From Microbulbifer variabilis (lineage in GTDB: Bacteria > Pseudomonadota > Gammaproteobacteria > Pseudomonadales > Cellvibrionaceae): a DNA stretch of 64,000 bases. The notes beneath the pieces are model-generated. The model ran no database searches, was not told where the DNA came from, and worked only from the letters and a program-made list of their open reading frames with translations. Below are positions 20,705 through 43,978 of this stretch, piece after piece. Numbering within the stretch: position 1 is the first letter of the stretch; the number at the start of each line of letters is the position of its first letter. A program made the position numbers and the translations under genes. The DNA lies in NCBI RefSeq assembly GCF_023716485.1, contig NZ_CP092418.1:3814501-3878500 (forward strand). The letters run 5' to 3'.

Positions 20705-20881
20705 ATGAGCAACCGCACCCTGCTAATCCTGCTCGTGCTGGTGGGCTATGTGTTCTCCCCCACCATATTTACCTGGATGATCAACCCCGTTGGCGCCTGG
20801 TACCGGCCCTTTATCCTCTGGTTCGTTTTGATCCTGCTGGCGATTTTTATCCAGTGGAGGCGCAACTCGAATGAGCTTTGA
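20705..20881 (+). CDS. cbrX: Small membrane protein overlapping cbrA (CbrX-like)
   Basis: A 58-residue frame from ATG 20705 to TGA 20881, overlapping the start of cbrA by 11 nt. It has two hydrophobic helices: LLILLVLVGYVFSPTIF and FILWFVLILLAIFIQW, with a short WYRP turn between and a basic WRR before the end. In Pseudomonas a small frame called cbrX sits in the same place and is translationally coupled to cbrA (recalled, not checked). The overlapping stop/start here implies the same coupling. The family has no established biochemical role; it could assist the CbrA transporter domain. Confidence 0.85.
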   Translation: MSNRTLLILLVLVGYVFSPTIFTWMINPVGAWYRPFILWFVLILLAIFIQWRRNSNEL

Positions 20882-23831
20882 GATCGCCCATATTGCCCTG
20901 ATCGGGGTTGCCTACATCGCTACCTTGTTCTTTGTCGCTTTCGCCACTTCCAAGGGCTGGCTGCCCGCACGCTGGGTGCGCCATCCACTGGTGTACGTAC
21001 TCTCGCTGGGGGTCTCTCTATCTGCCTGGACGTTCTATGGCATTGTCGACCTCGCCTGGCAATACGGCTACGGGGTGCTTGCCTACTACCTGGGCACCGG
21101 TGCCATGTTCTTATTTGCGCCTGTGGCACTGGAGCCCCTCGCGCGCCTGGCCCAACGCTACCAGCTCTACTCCCCCGCAGATCTACTGGTTTTCCGCTAC
21201 CACAGCCGCCAGGTGGGCACCCTGGCCACCCTGTTTATGCTATTGGCGCTGCTACCACTGGTCGCCCTACAGATCCAGGCGGTATCGGAAACCTTGGCAC
21301 TGCTGTCACGAGACAGCGTCGCCGCCCTCGGCCTGCCCGACAGTGGTGTTTCCAGTAAAAACCTAATCGCCTTTTTCTACTGTGTGCTGTTGGCAGTCTT
21401 CACCAGTATGTACGGCGCCACCCGTGAGCGCGGTGAGGGCCTCGCCAGTGCCATGGCGCTGGAATCCCTGGTTAAACTGGTGGCACTGACCGCGGTCGGT
21501 GGTTATGCCGTTTACGGTGTGTTCGGCGGTTTCTCAGGGCTCGACCAGTGGCTGCTGGAAAACAATGATATGCAGCAGCTGCTCTACACCCCCATTGAAC
21601 AGGGCTCCTCGCATACACTGCTGTTAGTCTTTATCGCTACCGCCGTGGCCATGCCACATATCTTTTACCTCAGCATCGCCGAGCGCCCCACCGGCCAGGC
21701 CCTGCGCACCGCCAGCTGGGGTTTTCCGCTTTTCCTGTTGCTAATGGCGCTGCCGATCTTTCCGATTATGTGGGCGGGCTTCGCCCTGGATGTGACTGAA
21801 CCGGTACAGTACTTCTCGCTGGCGGTGCCGCGTGCCAGTGGCTCAGCGTTGCTCACAACACTGGCCTTTATCGGCGGGCTCTCCGCCGCTACCGGCGCAC
21901 TGATTATGATCACCCTGGCATTATCTACCATGGTCATGAATCACTGGCTGCTACCGGGCACCCGCTGGGACTCCGAAGACAATATGTACCGCCAGTTGGT
22001 GTGGCTGCGCCGCGCTTTAATCGCTGCATTGTTTATCGCGGGTTTTGCCTTTTATCTGCTGCTGGACAATCGCCTTTCCCTGTCGGATTTAGCCCTGCTG
22101 GCCTTTATCGGTTCCCTGCAGTTTCTACCGGGTATCTTCGCCGTTATTCACTGGCCGCGAGGCAATCGACGTGGCCTGATTGGCGGACTTCTGGCGGGGA
22201 TGTTGATCTGGGGTTGCGGCCTGTTGCTGCCATCGGTGTTCGAACTAACCGGTATCACCCTACCGGGTACTTCTCTGCAGATACCCCTGGGCATGTCCAT
22301 CTGGACCCAGGTCACTACCCTGTCTCTCGGTGTCAATATAATCCTATTCGTCAGCCTCTCACTGTTCACTTCAACGAGCAGCCTGGAGCAATACGCCGCC
22401 GACCTATGCAGTGACGACACCATCGCCCAGGCTCTGCGCCTGGGGCTCGATGTACAGTCCGCAGCGGACTTTCGCCTGCGCCTGGCGGAGAGCCTAGGGG
22501 CGGCCACCGCCAACACCGAAGTGAAGCGCGCCCTCAATCAGCTCAACCTGCCCGATAACGAGCGCCGCCCCTATGCCCTGCGCCAGCTTCGCAATCGCAT
22601 TGAATCCAACCTGTCCGGGCTGCTCGGACGGGTACTGGCCGGCCAGATTATCGATCGCCACTTTCCCTTTCAGAACAGCGATCAGCCGGCCAACAAGGAT
22701 ATCCACCTGATCGAGACACGCCTGGGGCGTTACAAGCACCAGCTGACCGGGCTGGCGGCAGAGCTGAACAATTTGCGGCTGTACCACCGGCAAATGCTGG
22801 AGGAGCTTCCCATGGCCGCCTGCTCTCTGGGGCGCGACGGCGAGATACTGTTGTGGAATTACGCCATGCAGGATCTCACCGGGATTGCCGCCGTTGAGGT
22901 AATTGGCTCCAAGCTGGAATATCTGGCCGAACCCTGGCGCAGTCTGCTAGCGGAGTTTGCCGAATCCAGCGATGCCAGCCGCTTCAAGCAGCAAGTCAGT
23001 CTCGGCGGCAATAGCCACTGGCTCAACCTGCACAAAACCCGGCAGAAACGCAGCCGCAGCGGGCGGGCCCGCAACCAGCGTGGCGATGGGCAGATGTTAC
23101 TGCTTGAGGACATCACCGAGACCCAGATTCTGGAGCAGGAGCTGATTCACAGCGAACGCCTGGCCTCGGTGGGACGCCTCGCCGCCGGTGTCGCCCACGA
23201 GGTGGGCAACCCAGTGACCGGTATCGCCTGCCTGGCACAGAACCTCCAGTTCGATTGCGACAATCCGGAAGTGCTGGAAACTGCCGACCAAATCCTCAGC
23301 CAGACCCAGCGCATCAGCCGCATCGTACACTCACTGGTGAATTTTTCTCACAGTGGCAGCCAAGAGAGCGAGCGGGCTCCGGTAGACCTCTACGCCTGTG
23401 TGCAGGAAGCGGTGCACCTGCTATCCCTGCAACGGGATAAAACCGAGGTGCGCTTCGAAAATGCAGTCCCAGCAGATCTGATCGCCCCCGGGGATAACCA
23501 GCGTCTGATCCAGGTATTTATCAACCTGCTCAGCAATGCCCGCGACGCCAGCCCGGATGGCGGTCTCATCCGCATTGAAGGTCGAGAAGCCAAGGGTTGT
23601 GCCTGTGTGTCAGTCACCGACGACGGCCCCGGTATCTCTGCCCAACACCGCGAGCGTATTCTGGAACCCTTCTTCACGACCAAGGAACCCGGAGAAGGTA
23701 CAGGCCTGGGCTTGGCCATGGTGTACAGCATTGTTGAAGAGCACGGAGGGCAGCTAGAGCTGGAGAGCCCGGCCAATCCGGAGACCGGCCGCGGCGCCAG
23801 ATTTACTGTACAGCTGCCCTTGGCAGGCTAA
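20871..23831 (+). CDS. cbrA: Sensor histidine kinase CbrA with SLC5 transporter domain
   Basis: 986 residues, close to Pseudomonas CbrA (about 983). Residues 1-480 are a sodium/solute symporter (SLC5) domain with about 13 membrane helices. A linker is followed by a PAS domain (about 635-740), HisKA with phospho-acceptor His776 in AAGVAHEVGNPV, and an HATPase domain with N box FINLLSNARDAS, G1 DDGPGI and G2 GEGTGLGLAM. With CbrB it governs carbon/nitrogen source use and, in Pseudomonas, switches on crcZ to relieve catabolite repression; histidine transport by the SLC5 part is reported there. Its start overlaps cbrX and it is followed by cbrB after 127 bp. Confidence 0.95.
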   Translation: MSFEIAHIALIGVAYIATLFFVAFATSKGWLPARWVRHPLVYVLSLGVSLSAWTFYGIVDLAWQYGYGVLAYYLGTGAMFLFAPVALEPLARLAQRYQLYSPADLLVFRYHSRQVGTLATLFMLLALLPLVALQIQAVSETLALLSRDSVAALGLPDSGVSSKNLIAFFYCVLLAVFTSMYGATRERGEGLASAMALESLVKLVALTAVGGYAVYGVFGGFSGLDQWLLENNDMQQLLYTPIEQGSSHTLLLVFIATAVAMPHIFYLSIAERPTGQALRTASWGFPLFLLLMALPIFPIMWAGFALDVTEPVQYFSLAVPRASGSALLTTLAFIGGLSAATGALIMITLALSTMVMNHWLLPGTRWDSEDNMYRQLVWLRRALIAALFIAGFAFYLLLDNRLSLSDLALLAFIGSLQFLPGIFAVIHWPRGNRRGLIGGLLAGMLIWGCGLLLPSVFELTGITLPGTSLQIPLGMSIWTQVTTLSLGVNIILFVSLSLFTSTSSLEQYAADLCSDDTIAQALRLGLDVQSAADFRLRLAESLGAATANTEVKRALNQLNLPDNERRPYALRQLRNRIESNLSGLLGRVLAGQIIDRHFPFQNSDQPANKDIHLIETRLGRYKHQLTGLAAELNNLRLYHRQMLEELPMAACSLGRDGEILLWNYAMQDLTGIAAVEVIGSKLEYLAEPWRSLLAEFAESSDASRFKQQVSLGGNSHWLNLHKTRQKRSRSGRARNQRGDGQMLLLEDITETQILEQELIHSERLASVGRLAAGVAHEVGNPVTGIACLAQNLQFDCDNPEVLETADQILSQTQRISRIVHSLVNFSHSGSQESERAPVDLYACVQEAVHLLSLQRDKTEVRFENAVPADLIAPGDNQRLIQVFINLLSNARDASPDGGLIRIEGREAKGCACVSVTDDGPGISAQHRERILEPFFTTKEPGEGTGLGLAMVYSIVEEHGGQLELESPANPETGRGARFTVQLPLAG

Positions 23832-23958: not shown

Positions 23959-25350
23959 ATGAGCCACATCCTGATCGTCGAAGATGAAGCCATTATTCGA
24001 ACGGCGCTGCGCAAACTGTTAGAGCGGCACCGATATAAGGTCAGTGAGGCGGGCTCAGTTAGGGAGGCCCTTAGTAAGCACCGGGTCAATGAAGTGGACC
24101 TGGTTATCTCAGACCTGCGCCTACCCGGTGCACCGGGCACCGACTTGCTCAAGCATGCCGGTGAAGTACCGGTATTGATCATGACCAGTTACGCCAGCCT
24201 GCGCTCCGCTGTGGACTCCATGCGCATGGGCGCCGCGGACTATATCGCCAAGCCATTCGACCACGACGAGATGCTCGCCACCGTGCGCCGCGTCATCGGC
24301 AAGGCCGAACAAAGTCGCGCCCAAGCGCCTTTGGATAAAAGTAACCCAGGCACTATCGCCGGAATGATCGGCGACAGCATGGCTATGCGCGAACTCTATA
24401 GGCGCATTCACAAAGTGGCACCCACAGACGCCACCGTACTGGTGCATGGAGAAACCGGCACCGGTAAAGAGCTGGTGGCCAAAGCTATCCATGAAGAGAG
24501 CCGCCGCGCTGGCAAGCCGTTGATCTCGGTCAACTGTGCCGCCATTCCCGAGACATTGATCGAATCGGAGCTGTTTGGTTACGAAAAGGGCGCTTTTACC
24601 GGCGCCCAGAGTGCCCGCGAGGGATTGGTTGCCGCCGCTGATGGCGGCACCCTGTTTCTCGATGAAATCGGTGAACTCCCGCTAGAGGCTCAAGCACGGC
24701 TATTGCGAGTGATACAAGAGGGTGAGGTGCGCCCAATTGGCTCTATCGAGTCGCACAAAGTGGATGTGCGCCTGGTTACCGCCACCCACCGTAACCTGCG
24801 TCAACTTGCCGCTGAACGCAAGTTCCGCGAAGACCTCTACTACCGCATCAACGTGGTGCAGATGACTCTGGCACCGCTGCGCGAGCGCGGCCGCGATGTC
24901 CTTGCACTGGCAGAGCACCTTCTCGAAAAGTTCTGCACCAAAATTGAGCGCCCACTGCTGCGCCTCTCTCCCGAGGCAGTTCAGGCAGTCACCACGTACA
25001 CTTGGCCTGGTAACGTTCGTGAGCTGGAGAACGCCATACAACGCGCGGTCATCCTCACCGACCGTGACAGCCGGGAAATCGACCACAAAACCCTAGATAT
25101 AGACTTGGACCTGGTCCCCGTGGAGGAGGCCATCGGCGAGCCTCGTCCGCGCAGCCTGCATACCGATCCTCGCGAGGATCTCTCGCTGGAGGACTACTTC
25201 GCTCGCTTCGTAATCGAGCACCAGGACACCATGAGCGAGACCGAGCTGGCGAAAAAGCTGGGGGTCAGCCGCAAGTGCCTGTGGGAGCGTCGCCAAAAAC
25301 TGGGCATTCCCCGCAAGAAAACCCGCCGCAGCGCGGTTGCCGAAGCCTGA
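23959..25350 (+). CDS. cbrB: Sigma-54-dependent response regulator CbrB
   Basis: 463 residues. The receiver domain (1-120) has acidic pocket Glu8-Asp9 and phospho-acceptor Asp52 in ISDLRLPG. The AAA+ domain (about 135-365) has Walker A GETGTGKE and the sigma-54 contact loop GAFTGA. The C-terminus is a Fis-type helix-turn-helix ([20 protein letters not shown]). It is expected to activate sigma-54 promoters after phosphorylation by CbrA. Directly downstream lie matching inverted repeats and a sigma-54 promoter for an A-rich transcript, just as CbrB activates crcZ downstream of its own gene in Pseudomonas. Confidence 0.96.
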
Positions 25351-25466: not shown

Positions 25467-25540
25467 TGTTACATCACTGGTAACAGAGGGAAGTGTTACC
25501 CAAGACCTACCTCAAGTAACAGTTGCCGCACCTTACGTAA
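25467..25540. promoter_or_regulatory. Candidate CbrB upstream activating sites
   Basis: Two inverted repeats of the same half-sites: TGTTAC (25467-25472) with GTAACA (25480-25485), spacer 7; and TGTTAC (25494-25499) with GTAACA (25516-25521), spacer 16. A third partial palindrome TTACGTAA is at 25533-25540. They lie about 80-150 bp upstream of the sigma-54 promoter, the usual enhancer distance. TGTTAC/GTAACA-type subsites are what I recall for CbrB in Pseudomonas. Binding by CbrB is inferred. Confidence 0.7.
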
Positions 25541-25616
25541 CGCAATGCCACCCAGAAAAGTTCCATCAATTTTCGTAAAGATTGTAACTTGTTGATTTAT
25601 AAGGATTTTTAAAAGT

Positions 25617-25632
25617 TGGCACACTAAATGCT
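25617..25632 (+). promoter_or_regulatory. Sigma-54 (-24/-12) promoter of the CrcZ-like RNA
   Basis: TGGCAC-N5-ATGCT matches the consensus TGGCAC-N5-TTGCW at every position but one, with the critical GG and GC exactly 10 bp apart. Expected transcription start is about 25641-25645. It is placed downstream of the inverted repeats and just before the AAN-rich tract. Confidence 0.8.
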
Positions 25633-25641
25633 TTACTCTTA

Positions 25642-25976
25642 GTACAAAAATTAAAAACGGCCAACAATAAAAATAAATGACCGTTAAAAGCCCTATAACT
25701 ACTCAAAATAAGTGGGCGAAACACAATAAAAATAATGGGGCGGCCGATAACAAAAGCAATGAGTGGCCAAAACCGCAAGAACAACAATAAACAATAACAA
25801 TAATTTCGAAAGAAGAATAAAAATAACAACAAGCGCGTTGCAAACTGACTGATTTATACCTGGGAGAGGGTGTTTGCTTGATAGCAAATTAAGAGCGCAA
25901 GGAAGCCGCTGCCTTCATACCTGTAATAATAATTCCCAAACTTTTCCCCAACTTTCCGGCACCCGCAGATTGCGGG
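25642..25976 (+). ncRNA. crcZ: CrcZ-like small RNA (Hfq/Crc-titrating)
   Basis: The gap between cbrB and pcnB holds an untranslated A-rich tract with repeated AAN triplets, the pattern bound by the distal face of Hfq and by Hfq-Crc (CA motif AANAANAA). Main runs: 25663-25677 (5 triplets), 25725-25736 (4), 25749-25760, 25777-25791 and 25793-25804 (5 and 4), 25810-25833 (8 in a row) and 25925-25933 (3). Runs are separated by non-A segments, as in Pseudomonas CrcZ. Gene order, the sigma-54 promoter and CbrB-type sites all agree with crcZ. The 3' end is uncertain: hairpin CCCGCA-GAT-TGCGGG at 25962-25976 lacks a U-tract. Start is estimated from the promoter. Both strands were checked; the minus-strand frame here is only a Phe/Leu-rich shadow of the repeats. 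Confidence 0.8.
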
Positions 25977-26233
25977 CGCATTGCTTTGCGTGTGTTAGAA
26001 TCGCGCCAGCGAGTCCTCCACACTGACAGCAGATGCCATTGCCGCCCCCTGTTTTGGACTTCGCCCCCTGGGCCCGCCCAGGTACAGAGGCCCCAGTAGT
26101 GCAACAACATGCCCCAACTCCGTTGGGGAGGAAAGTGCAGGTGTAATGCCTGTCGCCACCGGAGATGTGGCCTCAGCACCAACAGGGCATTTTCGGTCAC
26201 CAACAGATGGCAGCAGTCAAGACAGACAGCCGT
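25977..26233 (+). promoter_or_regulatory. Structured leader upstream of pcnB
   Basis: An extended -10 element (TG-T-TAGAAT, TAGAAT at 25996-26001) could start a pcnB transcript separate from the sRNA; no good -35 was found. Two hairpins follow: CCCCAA-CTCCG-TTGGGG at 26112-26128 and GCCAC-CGGAGAT-GTGGC at 26155-26171. They may be leader structure or part of a read-through transcript from the sRNA. Function unknown. Confidence 0.4.
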
Positions 26234-27586
26234 ATGCTCAATAATTTGATTAGTAGTATCAAACGCTGGCGCAAGCCGGCCAAGAAAGGCCCCAGGGTTA
26301 TCGCCCGCAACGACCACAATATCTCCCGCCGGGATATCAGCCGCGCAGCCCTAACGGTCATGAAACGCCTACAGGAAGCAGGTTACCAAGCGTACATTGT
26401 CGGGGGCGGCGTGCGGGATCTAATGCTCGGCGGCCACCCCAAAGACTTCGATGTTGCCACTGACGCTACACCAGAACAGGCTAAAGTACTGTTTCGCGGC
26501 GCACGCATTGTCGGTCGGCGCTTTCGAATCCTGCACGCGCGTATTGGCCGCGAGGTTATTGAGGTCACCACTTTTCGGGGCCACCACAGCGATGGCGAGA
26601 CGCACGAAGCAAAACAATCCGAACACGGTATGTTGCTGCGCGACAACGTCTACGGCGACCTGGAAAGCGATGCCATGCGCCGCGACTTTACAGTCAATGC
26701 TCTCTATTACACCACCGATGGCTTCGCTGTTCACGACTACACCGGGGGTGTTGAGGACATTAATAATCGCCTGATCCGCATGATCGGGGCTCCCGCTACC
26801 CGCTATAAAGAAGACCCTGTGCGGATGCTGCGTGCGGTGCGCTTCGCAGCCAAACTGGATTTTGCCATCGAACCCGCTACCGAGGCCCCGCTAAAAGAGC
26901 TGGCTCCTCTACTGCGCAATATCGCCCCCGCGCGCTTGTTTGACGAGATCCTCAAACTGCTGATGAGCGGCCAGGGCGAGCGCACTTTCGAACTATTGCG
27001 CCGCTATCATCTGTGGCAGCACCTGTTCCCAGATAATGCAGCCCAAATTGAAAAGAACCCCGCAGCACTGGAGCTAACAAAGCGCGCCCTTCGTAATACC
27101 GACCAGCGCATCCAGGCTGATATGCGCGTGACCCCCGCCTTCCTATACGCTGCCCTGTTGTGGCCGGCTGTGGACGAGGAGCAGAAAAAGCTCATCGAGA
27201 AAGGGATTCCACCGGCGCCGGCACTGGCCCAGGCGGCTCAAAAAATTACCAGTAACCAACTGGCCCACACCGCTATTCCCAAGCGCTTCTCTATCCCCAT
27301 GCGCGAGATATGGGATCTCCAGCATCGTCTGCCACAACGCGGCGGCAGTCGCGCCCAGCGCCAGCTGGAGCACCCCCGCTTCCGCGCCGCTTACGACTTC
27401 CTGCTATTGCGCGAAGAGTGTGGAGAAATTGAACCCGGTCTGGGCAACTGGTGGACCGACTTTCAGCAAGCCGATGATGAACAACGCCAGCAAATGGTAC
27501 GCAAACTCCAGCGCAGCGGCGGCAACAATCGACGTGGCCGCAATTCCCGTGGCGGACGCCGACGCAAGCCAAAGGCTGCCGAATAA
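26234..27586 (+). CDS. pcnB: Poly(A) polymerase I
   Basis: 450 residues. The nucleotidyltransferase head has VGGGVRDLMLGGHPKDFDVAT with the catalytic DFD pair, then GRRFRILHARIGREVIEVTTF, and the RNA-binding region RRDFTVNALYY and RYKEDPVRMLRAVRFAAKL. The C-terminal arginine-rich tail (NNRRGRNSRGGRRRKPK) is typical. It adds 3' poly(A) tails that promote RNA decay. ATG at 26234 is chosen since MLNNLISSIKRW resembles Pseudomonas PcnB; the frame is open to 26165. Its stop overlaps the folK start by one base (TAATG), so translation is coupled. Confidence 0.95.
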   Translation: MLNNLISSIKRWRKPAKKGPRVIARNDHNISRRDISRAALTVMKRLQEAGYQAYIVGGGVRDLMLGGHPKDFDVATDATPEQAKVLFRGARIVGRRFRILHARIGREVIEVTTFRGHHSDGETHEAKQSEHGMLLRDNVYGDLESDAMRRDFTVNALYYTTDGFAVHDYTGGVEDINNRLIRMIGAPATRYKEDPVRMLRAVRFAAKLDFAIEPATEAPLKELAPLLRNIAPARLFDEILKLLMSGQGERTFELLRRYHLWQHLFPDNAAQIEKNPAALELTKRALRNTDQRIQADMRVTPAFLYAALLWPAVDEEQKKLIEKGIPPAPALAQAAQKITSNQLAHTAIPKRFSIPMREIWDLQHRLPQRGGSRAQRQLEHPRFRAAYDFLLLREECGEIEPGLGNWWTDFQQADDEQRQQMVRKLQRSGGNNRRGRNSRGGRRRKPKAAE

Positions 27587-43668: not shown

Positions 43669-43745
<77 letters not shown>

Positions 43746-43785
43746 ACAACACATGCGCATCAAAGCTTTTACATAAAAGCAAAAT

Positions 43786-43862
<77 letters not shown>

Positions 43863-43901
43863 ACAACAAATGCACATCAAAGTTTTTGCTAAAAGCAAAA
43901 T

Positions 43902-43978
<77 letters not shown>

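Follow-up and report, generated by a model that had tools for sequence, protein, structure and literature searches.

Does the gap between cbrB and pcnB of a Microbulbifer genome contain a crcZ gene, i.e. a small RNA gene of the kind known from Pseudomonas? A 2022 review describes CbrAB as 'unique' to the Pseudomonadaceae, with Pseudomonas and Azotobacter as 'exclusive hosts' (PMC8871633; for all articles cited here, statements refer to excerpts of the text), and CbrAB is also held to be exclusive to this family in PMC6296734. Among the literature matches listed, whose scope excludes most subscription journals, there is no report of CbrB or CrcZ outside the Pseudomonadaceae, and PMC5955585, as far as its excerpt goes, mentions CrcZ in general terms only. 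Transcripts of cbrA and cbrB have been found in marine plankton metatranscriptomes (PMC5073097), the excerpt naming neither a taxon nor an sRNA; this may be read as a printed hint at a wider occurrence of the two genes. Single cases may already have been noticed by Rfam and by genome annotators.

A preliminary description of the window, the whole 64 kb stretch of DNA analysed here, had placed a CrcZ-type locus downstream of cbrB. The host genome consists of a single contig of 4.86 Mb. Coordinates refer to the window, and f1, f2 and so on are anonymous family labels.

Results

Gene order around the candidate locus

The candidate crcZ lies between cbrB and pcnB, in a gap of 874 nt when counted to the pcnB start codon used (26225). 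The upstream gene cbrA (20871..23831, plus strand) encodes a sensor kinase with an N-terminal transporter-like part, recognized from phmmer, HisKA/HATPase_c domains and position. Its best solved match is 10ed_A, a 'histidine kinase' (residues 1-604, E 2e-158, phmmer), and the name CbrA rests on position and on 49-50% identity to the gene preceding cbrB in four named Pseudomonas loci. It is followed by cbrB (23959..25350, plus strand), an NtrC-type sigma-54 activator identified by its 60-62% identity to CbrB of Pseudomonas and Pseudomonas-like loci. Neither CbrA nor CbrB matches an NCBIfam family above cut-off among the 25 families listed. On the other side of the gap pcnB (26225..27586, plus strand), encoding poly(A) polymerase, is assigned by TIGR01942 (544 bits, above cut-off); this start is provisional, the longest pcnB ORF beginning at 26165. 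The order cbrA-cbrB-gap-pcnB-folK is the same in all four named Pseudomonas loci compared.

Promoter and putative CbrB subsites

TGTTAC/GTAACA inverted repeats and a sigma-54 promoter had been described in the gap, and we find both. TGTTAC-N7-GTAACA at 25467 and TGTTAC-N16-GTAACA at 25494 fall in the cbrB-pcnB gap, and the 64 kb window holds no other TGTTAC-N7..18-GTAACA site. The P. putida sites consist of a forward subsite, F1 (TGTTAC), and two subsites in reverse orientation, R1 and R2, with a spacing of 20-25 bp; the R2 of crcZ is given as GTAACg (PMC6296734). The window contains putative CbrB subsites F1 (TGTTAC, 25494..25499), R1 (GTAACA, 25516..25521) and R2 (GTAACG, 25537..25542) on the plus strand, located 123, 101 and 80 bp upstream of the sigma-54 TGG. 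Their starts at 25494, 25516 and 25537 reproduce the 20-25 bp neighbour spacing of crcZ (PMC6296734), and the letters of R2 are identical to those of R2 in P. putida crcZ. The repeat TGTTAC-N7-GTAACA that had been described first (25467..25485, from a pattern scan, no strand given) is an extra one: among the loci of the family that pass the whole-element test (see below), it was printed only for the window locus (L007) and for L010.

The sigma-54 promoter TGGCACACTAAATGC (GG-N10-GC; 25617..25631, plus strand) was identified by motif score and is kept in the genus alignment. It scores 14.0 of 15.7 in a simple ad hoc sigma-54 weighting. As 21 sites on the two strands of the 64 kb window, the one at 25617 among them, score at least 13, the score alone is not rare and the weight lies on combination, spacing and conservation.

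This combination recurs in other loci. Considering loci with a promoter score of at least 12.5, a promoter at least 130 nt past the cbrB stop and a gap longer than 200 nt, at least two of F1, R1 and R2 (at least 5 of 6 letters each) are found in 48/48 Microbulbifer, 15/15 Pseudomonas, 26/27 other family and 53/72 other loci, compared to 18 of 1040 random anchors used as control. The 48 'Microbulbifer' loci of the subsite and core counts comprise 39 genome loci and nine named loci, several of them from the same genomes, and thus correspond to about 39 distinct Microbulbifer genomes. Of the 66 family loci that pass, 62 have F1 at 121-126 bp from the promoter, the remaining four being without a full palindrome; in three Pseudomonas-like controls of the same run the distance is 123-124 bp. 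As a separate observation, in L094, L129, L209, L241 and others the CbrB half-sites are located farther out, at 87-89 and 131-143 compared to 80 and 123, a displacement of approximately one or two helical turns.

On the minus strand, WATCAANNNNTTR (25585..25597) matches the IHF consensus. With the same restrictions on promoter and gap, this consensus is present in 43/48 Microbulbifer loci (0.3 expected from shuffles), 1/15 Pseudomonas loci, 6/27 other family loci and 21/72 others. It is therefore not general at this stringency. For a CbrB target, an IHF site has been described between the CbrB sites and the sigma-54 promoter, and IHF also helps crcZ and crcY (PMC6296734).

The AAN tract

At least six AAN runs, one of them with eight triplets, had been claimed for the gap; the count gives exactly six runs of three or more triplets, five of which have at least four. 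On the plus strand they occupy 25663..25677 (five triplets), 25725..25736 (four), 25777..25791 (five), 25793..25804 (four), 25810..25833 (eight) and 25925..25933 (three). The CrcZ of PAO1, which titrates Hfq, has six (A-R-N)n stretches with n of at least 4 (PMC4063720), compared to five runs with n of at least 4 and one with n=3 here, where the triplets were counted as AAN and not as A-R-N. The gap contains 29 AAN triplets in runs of at least three, with a mean of 4.3 in dinucleotide shuffles (z 8.0). It also holds the 350-nt stretch with the highest AAN density on either strand of the window, with 87 nt covered and 36 nt in the runner-up.

The preliminary description had made its reading depend on conservation of these runs in related genomes. 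When 23 sequences (22 from the genus and one from a near genus) are aligned from the promoter, the AAN runs stand at similar places across the genus loci compared, with short stems between them, followed by a near-constant block of about 100 nt. These data bear on a quite different explanation, in which the tract merely has low complexity because the gap is AT-rich, or is the shadow of a short minus-strand ORF (25566-25832) with a hydrophobic product. Such an 88-aa ORF exists, and minus-strand ORFs of 42-138 aa occur in 39/39 loci tested; the 13 that were printed, however, vary in start and length, as AAN read backwards predicts. Together with the excess over dinucleotide shuffles (z 8), the conserved run positions and the stems with compensatory changes described below, this makes coincidence or an ORF shadow highly improbable.

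Instead of a separate RNA, the tract could also be the 5' leader of the pcnB mRNA and let Hfq-Crc regulate poly(A) polymerase. It is located a short way before pcnB and in the same orientation, and our scan found no clear terminator after it. On the other hand, 230-290 nt separate the end of the final A-rich run from pcnB, the exact figure varying with the start chosen, and a possible -10 element (TAGAAT, 25996..26001, plus strand) of a separate pcnB promoter, recognized by eye, is located in between and recurs in similar form in most rows of the genus alignment. The sigma-70 scan found no promoter at this TAGAAT. Moreover, f8 genomes have an element with sigma-54 promoter, CbrB half-sites and AAN runs away from cbrB, and L048 and L052 have the tract where the search found no pcnB (L052 ends near a contig end). 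We thus regard a leader of pcnB as very unlikely and favour a separate RNA transcribed from the sigma-54 promoter.

Conserved features of the predicted RNA

The predicted sRNA extends from 25642 to 25950 on the plus strand, its start being placed by distance from the promoter and its 3' end being uncertain: on the plus strand the scan found no clear intrinsic terminator, the sole match lying on the minus strand. As a whole, the predicted RNA folds no better than shuffles (z -0.06). According to the preliminary description, conservation beyond the A-rich motifs was not obvious. This does not hold, as stems in the 5' part, a conserved 3' block and a core common with Pseudomonas CrcZ are seen.

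In the 5' part, hairpin 1 (25656..25685, plus strand) holds the AAN run 25663-25677 in its loop and has three pairs changed on both sides; its pair 25661-25680 is not formed in the window sequence. Hairpin 2 (GCCC/GGGC; 25690..25717, plus strand) displays no compensatory change, and the subgroup of the window is misaligned there by one column. Three pairs changed on both sides are also found in hairpin 3 (25736..25775, plus strand; inner helix 25742-25745/25765-25768). Over 34 distinct sequences, 88.9% of the cells in the four small 5' helices are paired, with compensatory changes in six pairs and 26 cells. Controls with slid partners yield 0 to 12 compensatory cells and at most 45.5% of cells paired; as the four-helix structure was drawn by hand from the same alignment, it is favoured over these slid versions. 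Among 500 shuffles none reaches 26 cells or the covariation score, and two reach six pairs. The number of pair types in the 5' helices is not above that of shuffles (11 compared to 12.4, with 488 of 500 shuffles at least as high). One of the 18 pairs of the four-helix structure barely forms (columns 23-42, 7/34), and RNAalifold predicts just seven pairs for the 5' half, joining columns 22-24 to 79-81.

The strongly conserved 3' block (model R1; 25814..25955, plus strand) was delimited from the genus alignment. Only one of its 29 pairs is changed on both sides, the block being near-invariant and thus too conserved for a covariation test. Outside the genus, model R1 matches 8 of 95 loci, L043 strongly and seven weakly (E 4e-4 to 0.28), and none of these eight matches is to a Pseudomonas locus.

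The core AACTGA...GGGAGAGG (25843..25869, plus strand), located by motif search, is also found in Pseudomonas CrcZ. Considering loci with a gap longer than 200 nt, ACTGA-N-GGAGAGG occurs in 48/48 Microbulbifer and 14/16 Pseudomonas loci, in 7/31 other family loci and in 2/113 others, and in none on the reverse strand. Part of the RNA body is thus common to Microbulbifer and Pseudomonas. Most other sampled lineages are without a recognizable core or have an altered one. Motifs of the GGA type, UUGGA and AGGGA, mediate the binding of RsmN/RsmA to P. aeruginosa CrcZ (PMC6061880). This UUGGA may be the one within the Pseudomonas core; we treat this as a lead only, since a second UUGGA is located downstream in the loci looked at.

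Comparison with the Rfam CrcZ model

A search with the Rfam CrcZ covariance model (RF01675), proposed earlier as a check, gives 23.3 bits, which is below the gathering cut-off of 95 bits, so that the RNA of the window is not filed under RF01675 as now delimited. The sub-threshold match covers 25775-25928 (E 4e-4 in the window search). It is still the best match of the genome (E 5.8e-4, the next having 0.126), while at a loose E of 10 the model also has matches in 9 of 14 control genomes. The Microbulbifer genome contains five other weak CrcZ matches with neither paired CbrB sites nor a good sigma-54 site, and none of them is a convincing crcY or crcX paralogue. At the gathering threshold Rfam finds three tRNAs in the window and nothing else; these are tandem genes with equal Rfam scores (43672-43978, minus strand).

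In the order, the CrcZ model scores above cut-off in 14 of 293 genomes and below it, at E of at most 0.001, in 45 more, in a scan whose stricter filters (applied for more than 40 genomes) miss the genome of the window itself. For 18 loci chosen over the families, 15 match at E of at most 0.5, two of them above cut-off.

Crc and Hfq

The genome contains both crc and hfq. Its crc, whose presence had been set as a check, is a single gene flanked by ORFs recognized by eye as pyrE and rph, and the product has its best match to P. aeruginosa Crc over the whole length (E 4e-77). It is closer to Crc than to exonuclease III: the score to P. aeruginosa Crc is 262.6 bits, and below the two Crc chains and 2myi_A (250.2 bits), which carries the label exodeoxyribonuclease III, the best of the other 46 sequences reaches 173.4. 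A separate exonuclease III gene (xth) is present in the same genome. There is a single hfq gene; in its first 70 residues the product is nearly the same as Hfq of P. aeruginosa. A crude and strict search of the genome for targets (AAYAAYAAYAA-N2..12-ATG) gave 13 matches, compared to 10 for the reversed pattern, and hence no signal; only two matches precede an ORF of at least 100 aa.

An RNA driven by CbrB and sigma-54 might sponge Hfq alone, or act mainly via its 3' block by base-pairing or RsmA binding, Crc being dispensable. The 3' block is indeed the most conserved part within the genus, GGA motifs serve as RsmA/RsmN binding sites in P. aeruginosa CrcZ (PMC6061880), and in f28 the element is found in L129, yet 6 of 7 genomes have no Crc match. 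The Microbulbifer genome, in contrast, has a full-length Crc in the usual place, and its AAN runs persist across all the genus loci that were compared. An RNA that bypasses Crc is therefore unlikely here, and a decoy of Hfq-Crc remains the preferred reading.

Family f28 deserves mention in its own right. Its genomes G349, G207, G238, G265, G310 and G330 have no Crc match at E 1e-5, CbrB is present, and the single locus looked at, L129 (G349), has a crcZ-type element. It possibly represents an Hfq decoy without Crc.

Distribution in the family, order and class

CbrB is present in 48/48 genus genomes and 141/144 family genomes (E of at most 1e-120); from the order 293 genomes were sampled, and 213 have it (E of at most 1e-135); Crc is found in 222 of these 293 (E of at most 1e-45). 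We applied the whole-element test to 129 CbrB loci, 70 from the family of Microbulbifer (the genus contributes 39 of its 48 genomes, and 30 of the 31 other genera together contribute 31), 41 from the order and 18 from the class. The element is found in 100/129 loci, in none on the reverse strand and in none of the 129 cbrB coding sequences. In the family 66/70 loci pass. For the rest of the order, 34/40 loci from 32 other families pass (one of the 40 stopped at a contig end), with at least one pass in 27 families; as the choice of these loci, usually one for each family, required a CbrB match in the genome, the figure is silent on genomes without CbrB (80/293 at E of at most 1e-135). A further locus of the order, from f35, does not pass (0/1). 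In CbrB-like loci of the class outside the order the element is found in 0/18.

The failing order loci are L115 (f8), L116 (f9), L117 (f10), L122 (f17), L128 (f27), L144 (f7) and L152 (f35). Among the reasons, L116 has promoter and F1 but only six AAN triplets, L128 has no sequence and L144 has a weak promoter. A set of named loci, which overlaps with the genome loci so that the two counts are not to be summed, gives 72/80 passes and none on the reverse strand. It includes 9/9 Microbulbifer and 13/13 Pseudomonas loci, and passing genera include Microbulbifer, Cellvibrio, Gilvimarinus, Marinimicrobium, Zhongshania, Spongiibacter and Halioglobus. The failing named loci are L182, L186, L197, L201, L203, L206, L222 and L237 (Alcanivorax). 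The circuit had been proposed to extend to the Microbulbifer lineage; the candidate element appears to reach further than that, into most sampled families of the order.

Several arrangements differ from that of the window. In f8 (L103, L108, L109) a sigma-54 promoter, CbrB half-sites and AAN runs are found away from cbrB; in G342 of this family cbrB is located at 4927694 and the CrcZ match at 4870601, which we read as a moved crcZ. In L120 (f14), L119 (f12) and perhaps L135, L136 and L141 the gap between cbrB and pcnB is long and holds two sets of CbrB half-sites, which would fit a tandem duplication of crcZ. In L044, L045 and L046 (f1, three genera) cbrB is kept, but neither a pcnB match nor an A-rich tract follows it; crcZ would here be rearranged or lost.

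The loci L150, L151 and L153-L168 from other orders of the class have CbrB-like proteins (49-60% identity in local alignment), with neither a pcnB match in the stretch fetched nor the element. CbrB-like proteins without the element suggest that the regulator may predate its link to crcZ.

Discussion

Position, subsite spacing, promoter, conservation of the AAN runs and the presence of crc and hfq all support the reading as a CrcZ-type locus. Judged from sequence, the stretch from 25617 to about 25950 is thus very probably the crcZ gene of Microbulbifer, orthologous to crcZ of Pseudomonas and encoding an Hfq-Crc decoy driven by CbrB and sigma-54. We infer transcription, control, Hfq binding and target effect of this RNA from the work on Pseudomonas. 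Accordingly modelled, CbrA would activate CbrB when good carbon sources are short, and CbrB would bind F1-R1-R2. The DNA would be bent, probably by IHF, and sigma-54 polymerase would initiate near 25642. The resulting RNA, roughly 300 nt long, would present (AAN)n tracts, five or six in number and one located in a hairpin loop, which would fill the distal face of Hfq and keep Hfq-Crc off catabolic mRNAs. Freed of Hfq-Crc, these mRNAs would be translated.

If the RNA works as in Pseudomonas, the way in which these bacteria rank their carbon sources becomes predictable, and most of the range of this RNA escapes the Rfam model, which was built on Pseudomonas. The order also offers natural experiments, with crcZ perhaps without Crc, crcZ away from cbrB and crcZ perhaps in tandem.

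The exclusivity of CbrAB to the Pseudomonadaceae is contradicted by the distribution found here. A bolder proposal, which we advance tentatively and would not yet bet on, is that CbrAB-crcZ is an ancestral carbon-control circuit of the whole order (in the GTDB sense) and no speciality of Pseudomonas. Its oldest part would be a decoy RNA for Hfq, driven by CbrB and sigma-54 and able to work without Crc, as f28 may show, and some lineages would keep the GGA-containing core, perhaps read by RsmA-type proteins for carbon status. The ancestry of the circuit is here deduced from spread and common gene order, not from a tree.

With CrcZ of Pseudomonas the locus shares the place between cbrB and pcnB, the sigma-54 promoter, the F1-R1-R2 spacing, several (AAN)n runs and the ACTGA...GGAGAGG core. 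The body of the Microbulbifer RNA, in contrast, has diverged so far that it scores below the Rfam cut-off. Its core begins about 227 nt past the promoter start, near the predicted 3' end, compared to 113-118 nt in five Pseudomonas loci, and the predicted length is about 300 nt, compared to 407 nt reported for PAO1 CrcZ (PMC4063720). The low Rfam score, the displaced core and the shorter predicted length argue against a plain copy of CrcZ.

CrcX of Pseudomonas has the same promoter logic and decoy motifs as the locus described here. The likeness to CrcY is of the same kind (PMC6296734). Unlike with CrcY and CrcX in Pseudomonas, no second copy was found in the Microbulbifer genome, while tandem second elements seem to exist in other families (L119, L120). 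In Azotobacter vinelandii CrcZ and CrcY belong to CbrA/CbrB and Hfq-Crc control (PMC5429807; PMC6292655). Azotobacter, however, lies inside the Pseudomonadaceae, and Microbulbifer outside. The decoy RNAs RsmY/RsmZ and CsrB bind CsrA/RsmA via GGA motifs, and their position and control are unrelated to those of crcZ. What the Microbulbifer RNA would have in common with them is the principle of an RNA that sequesters a translational repressor.
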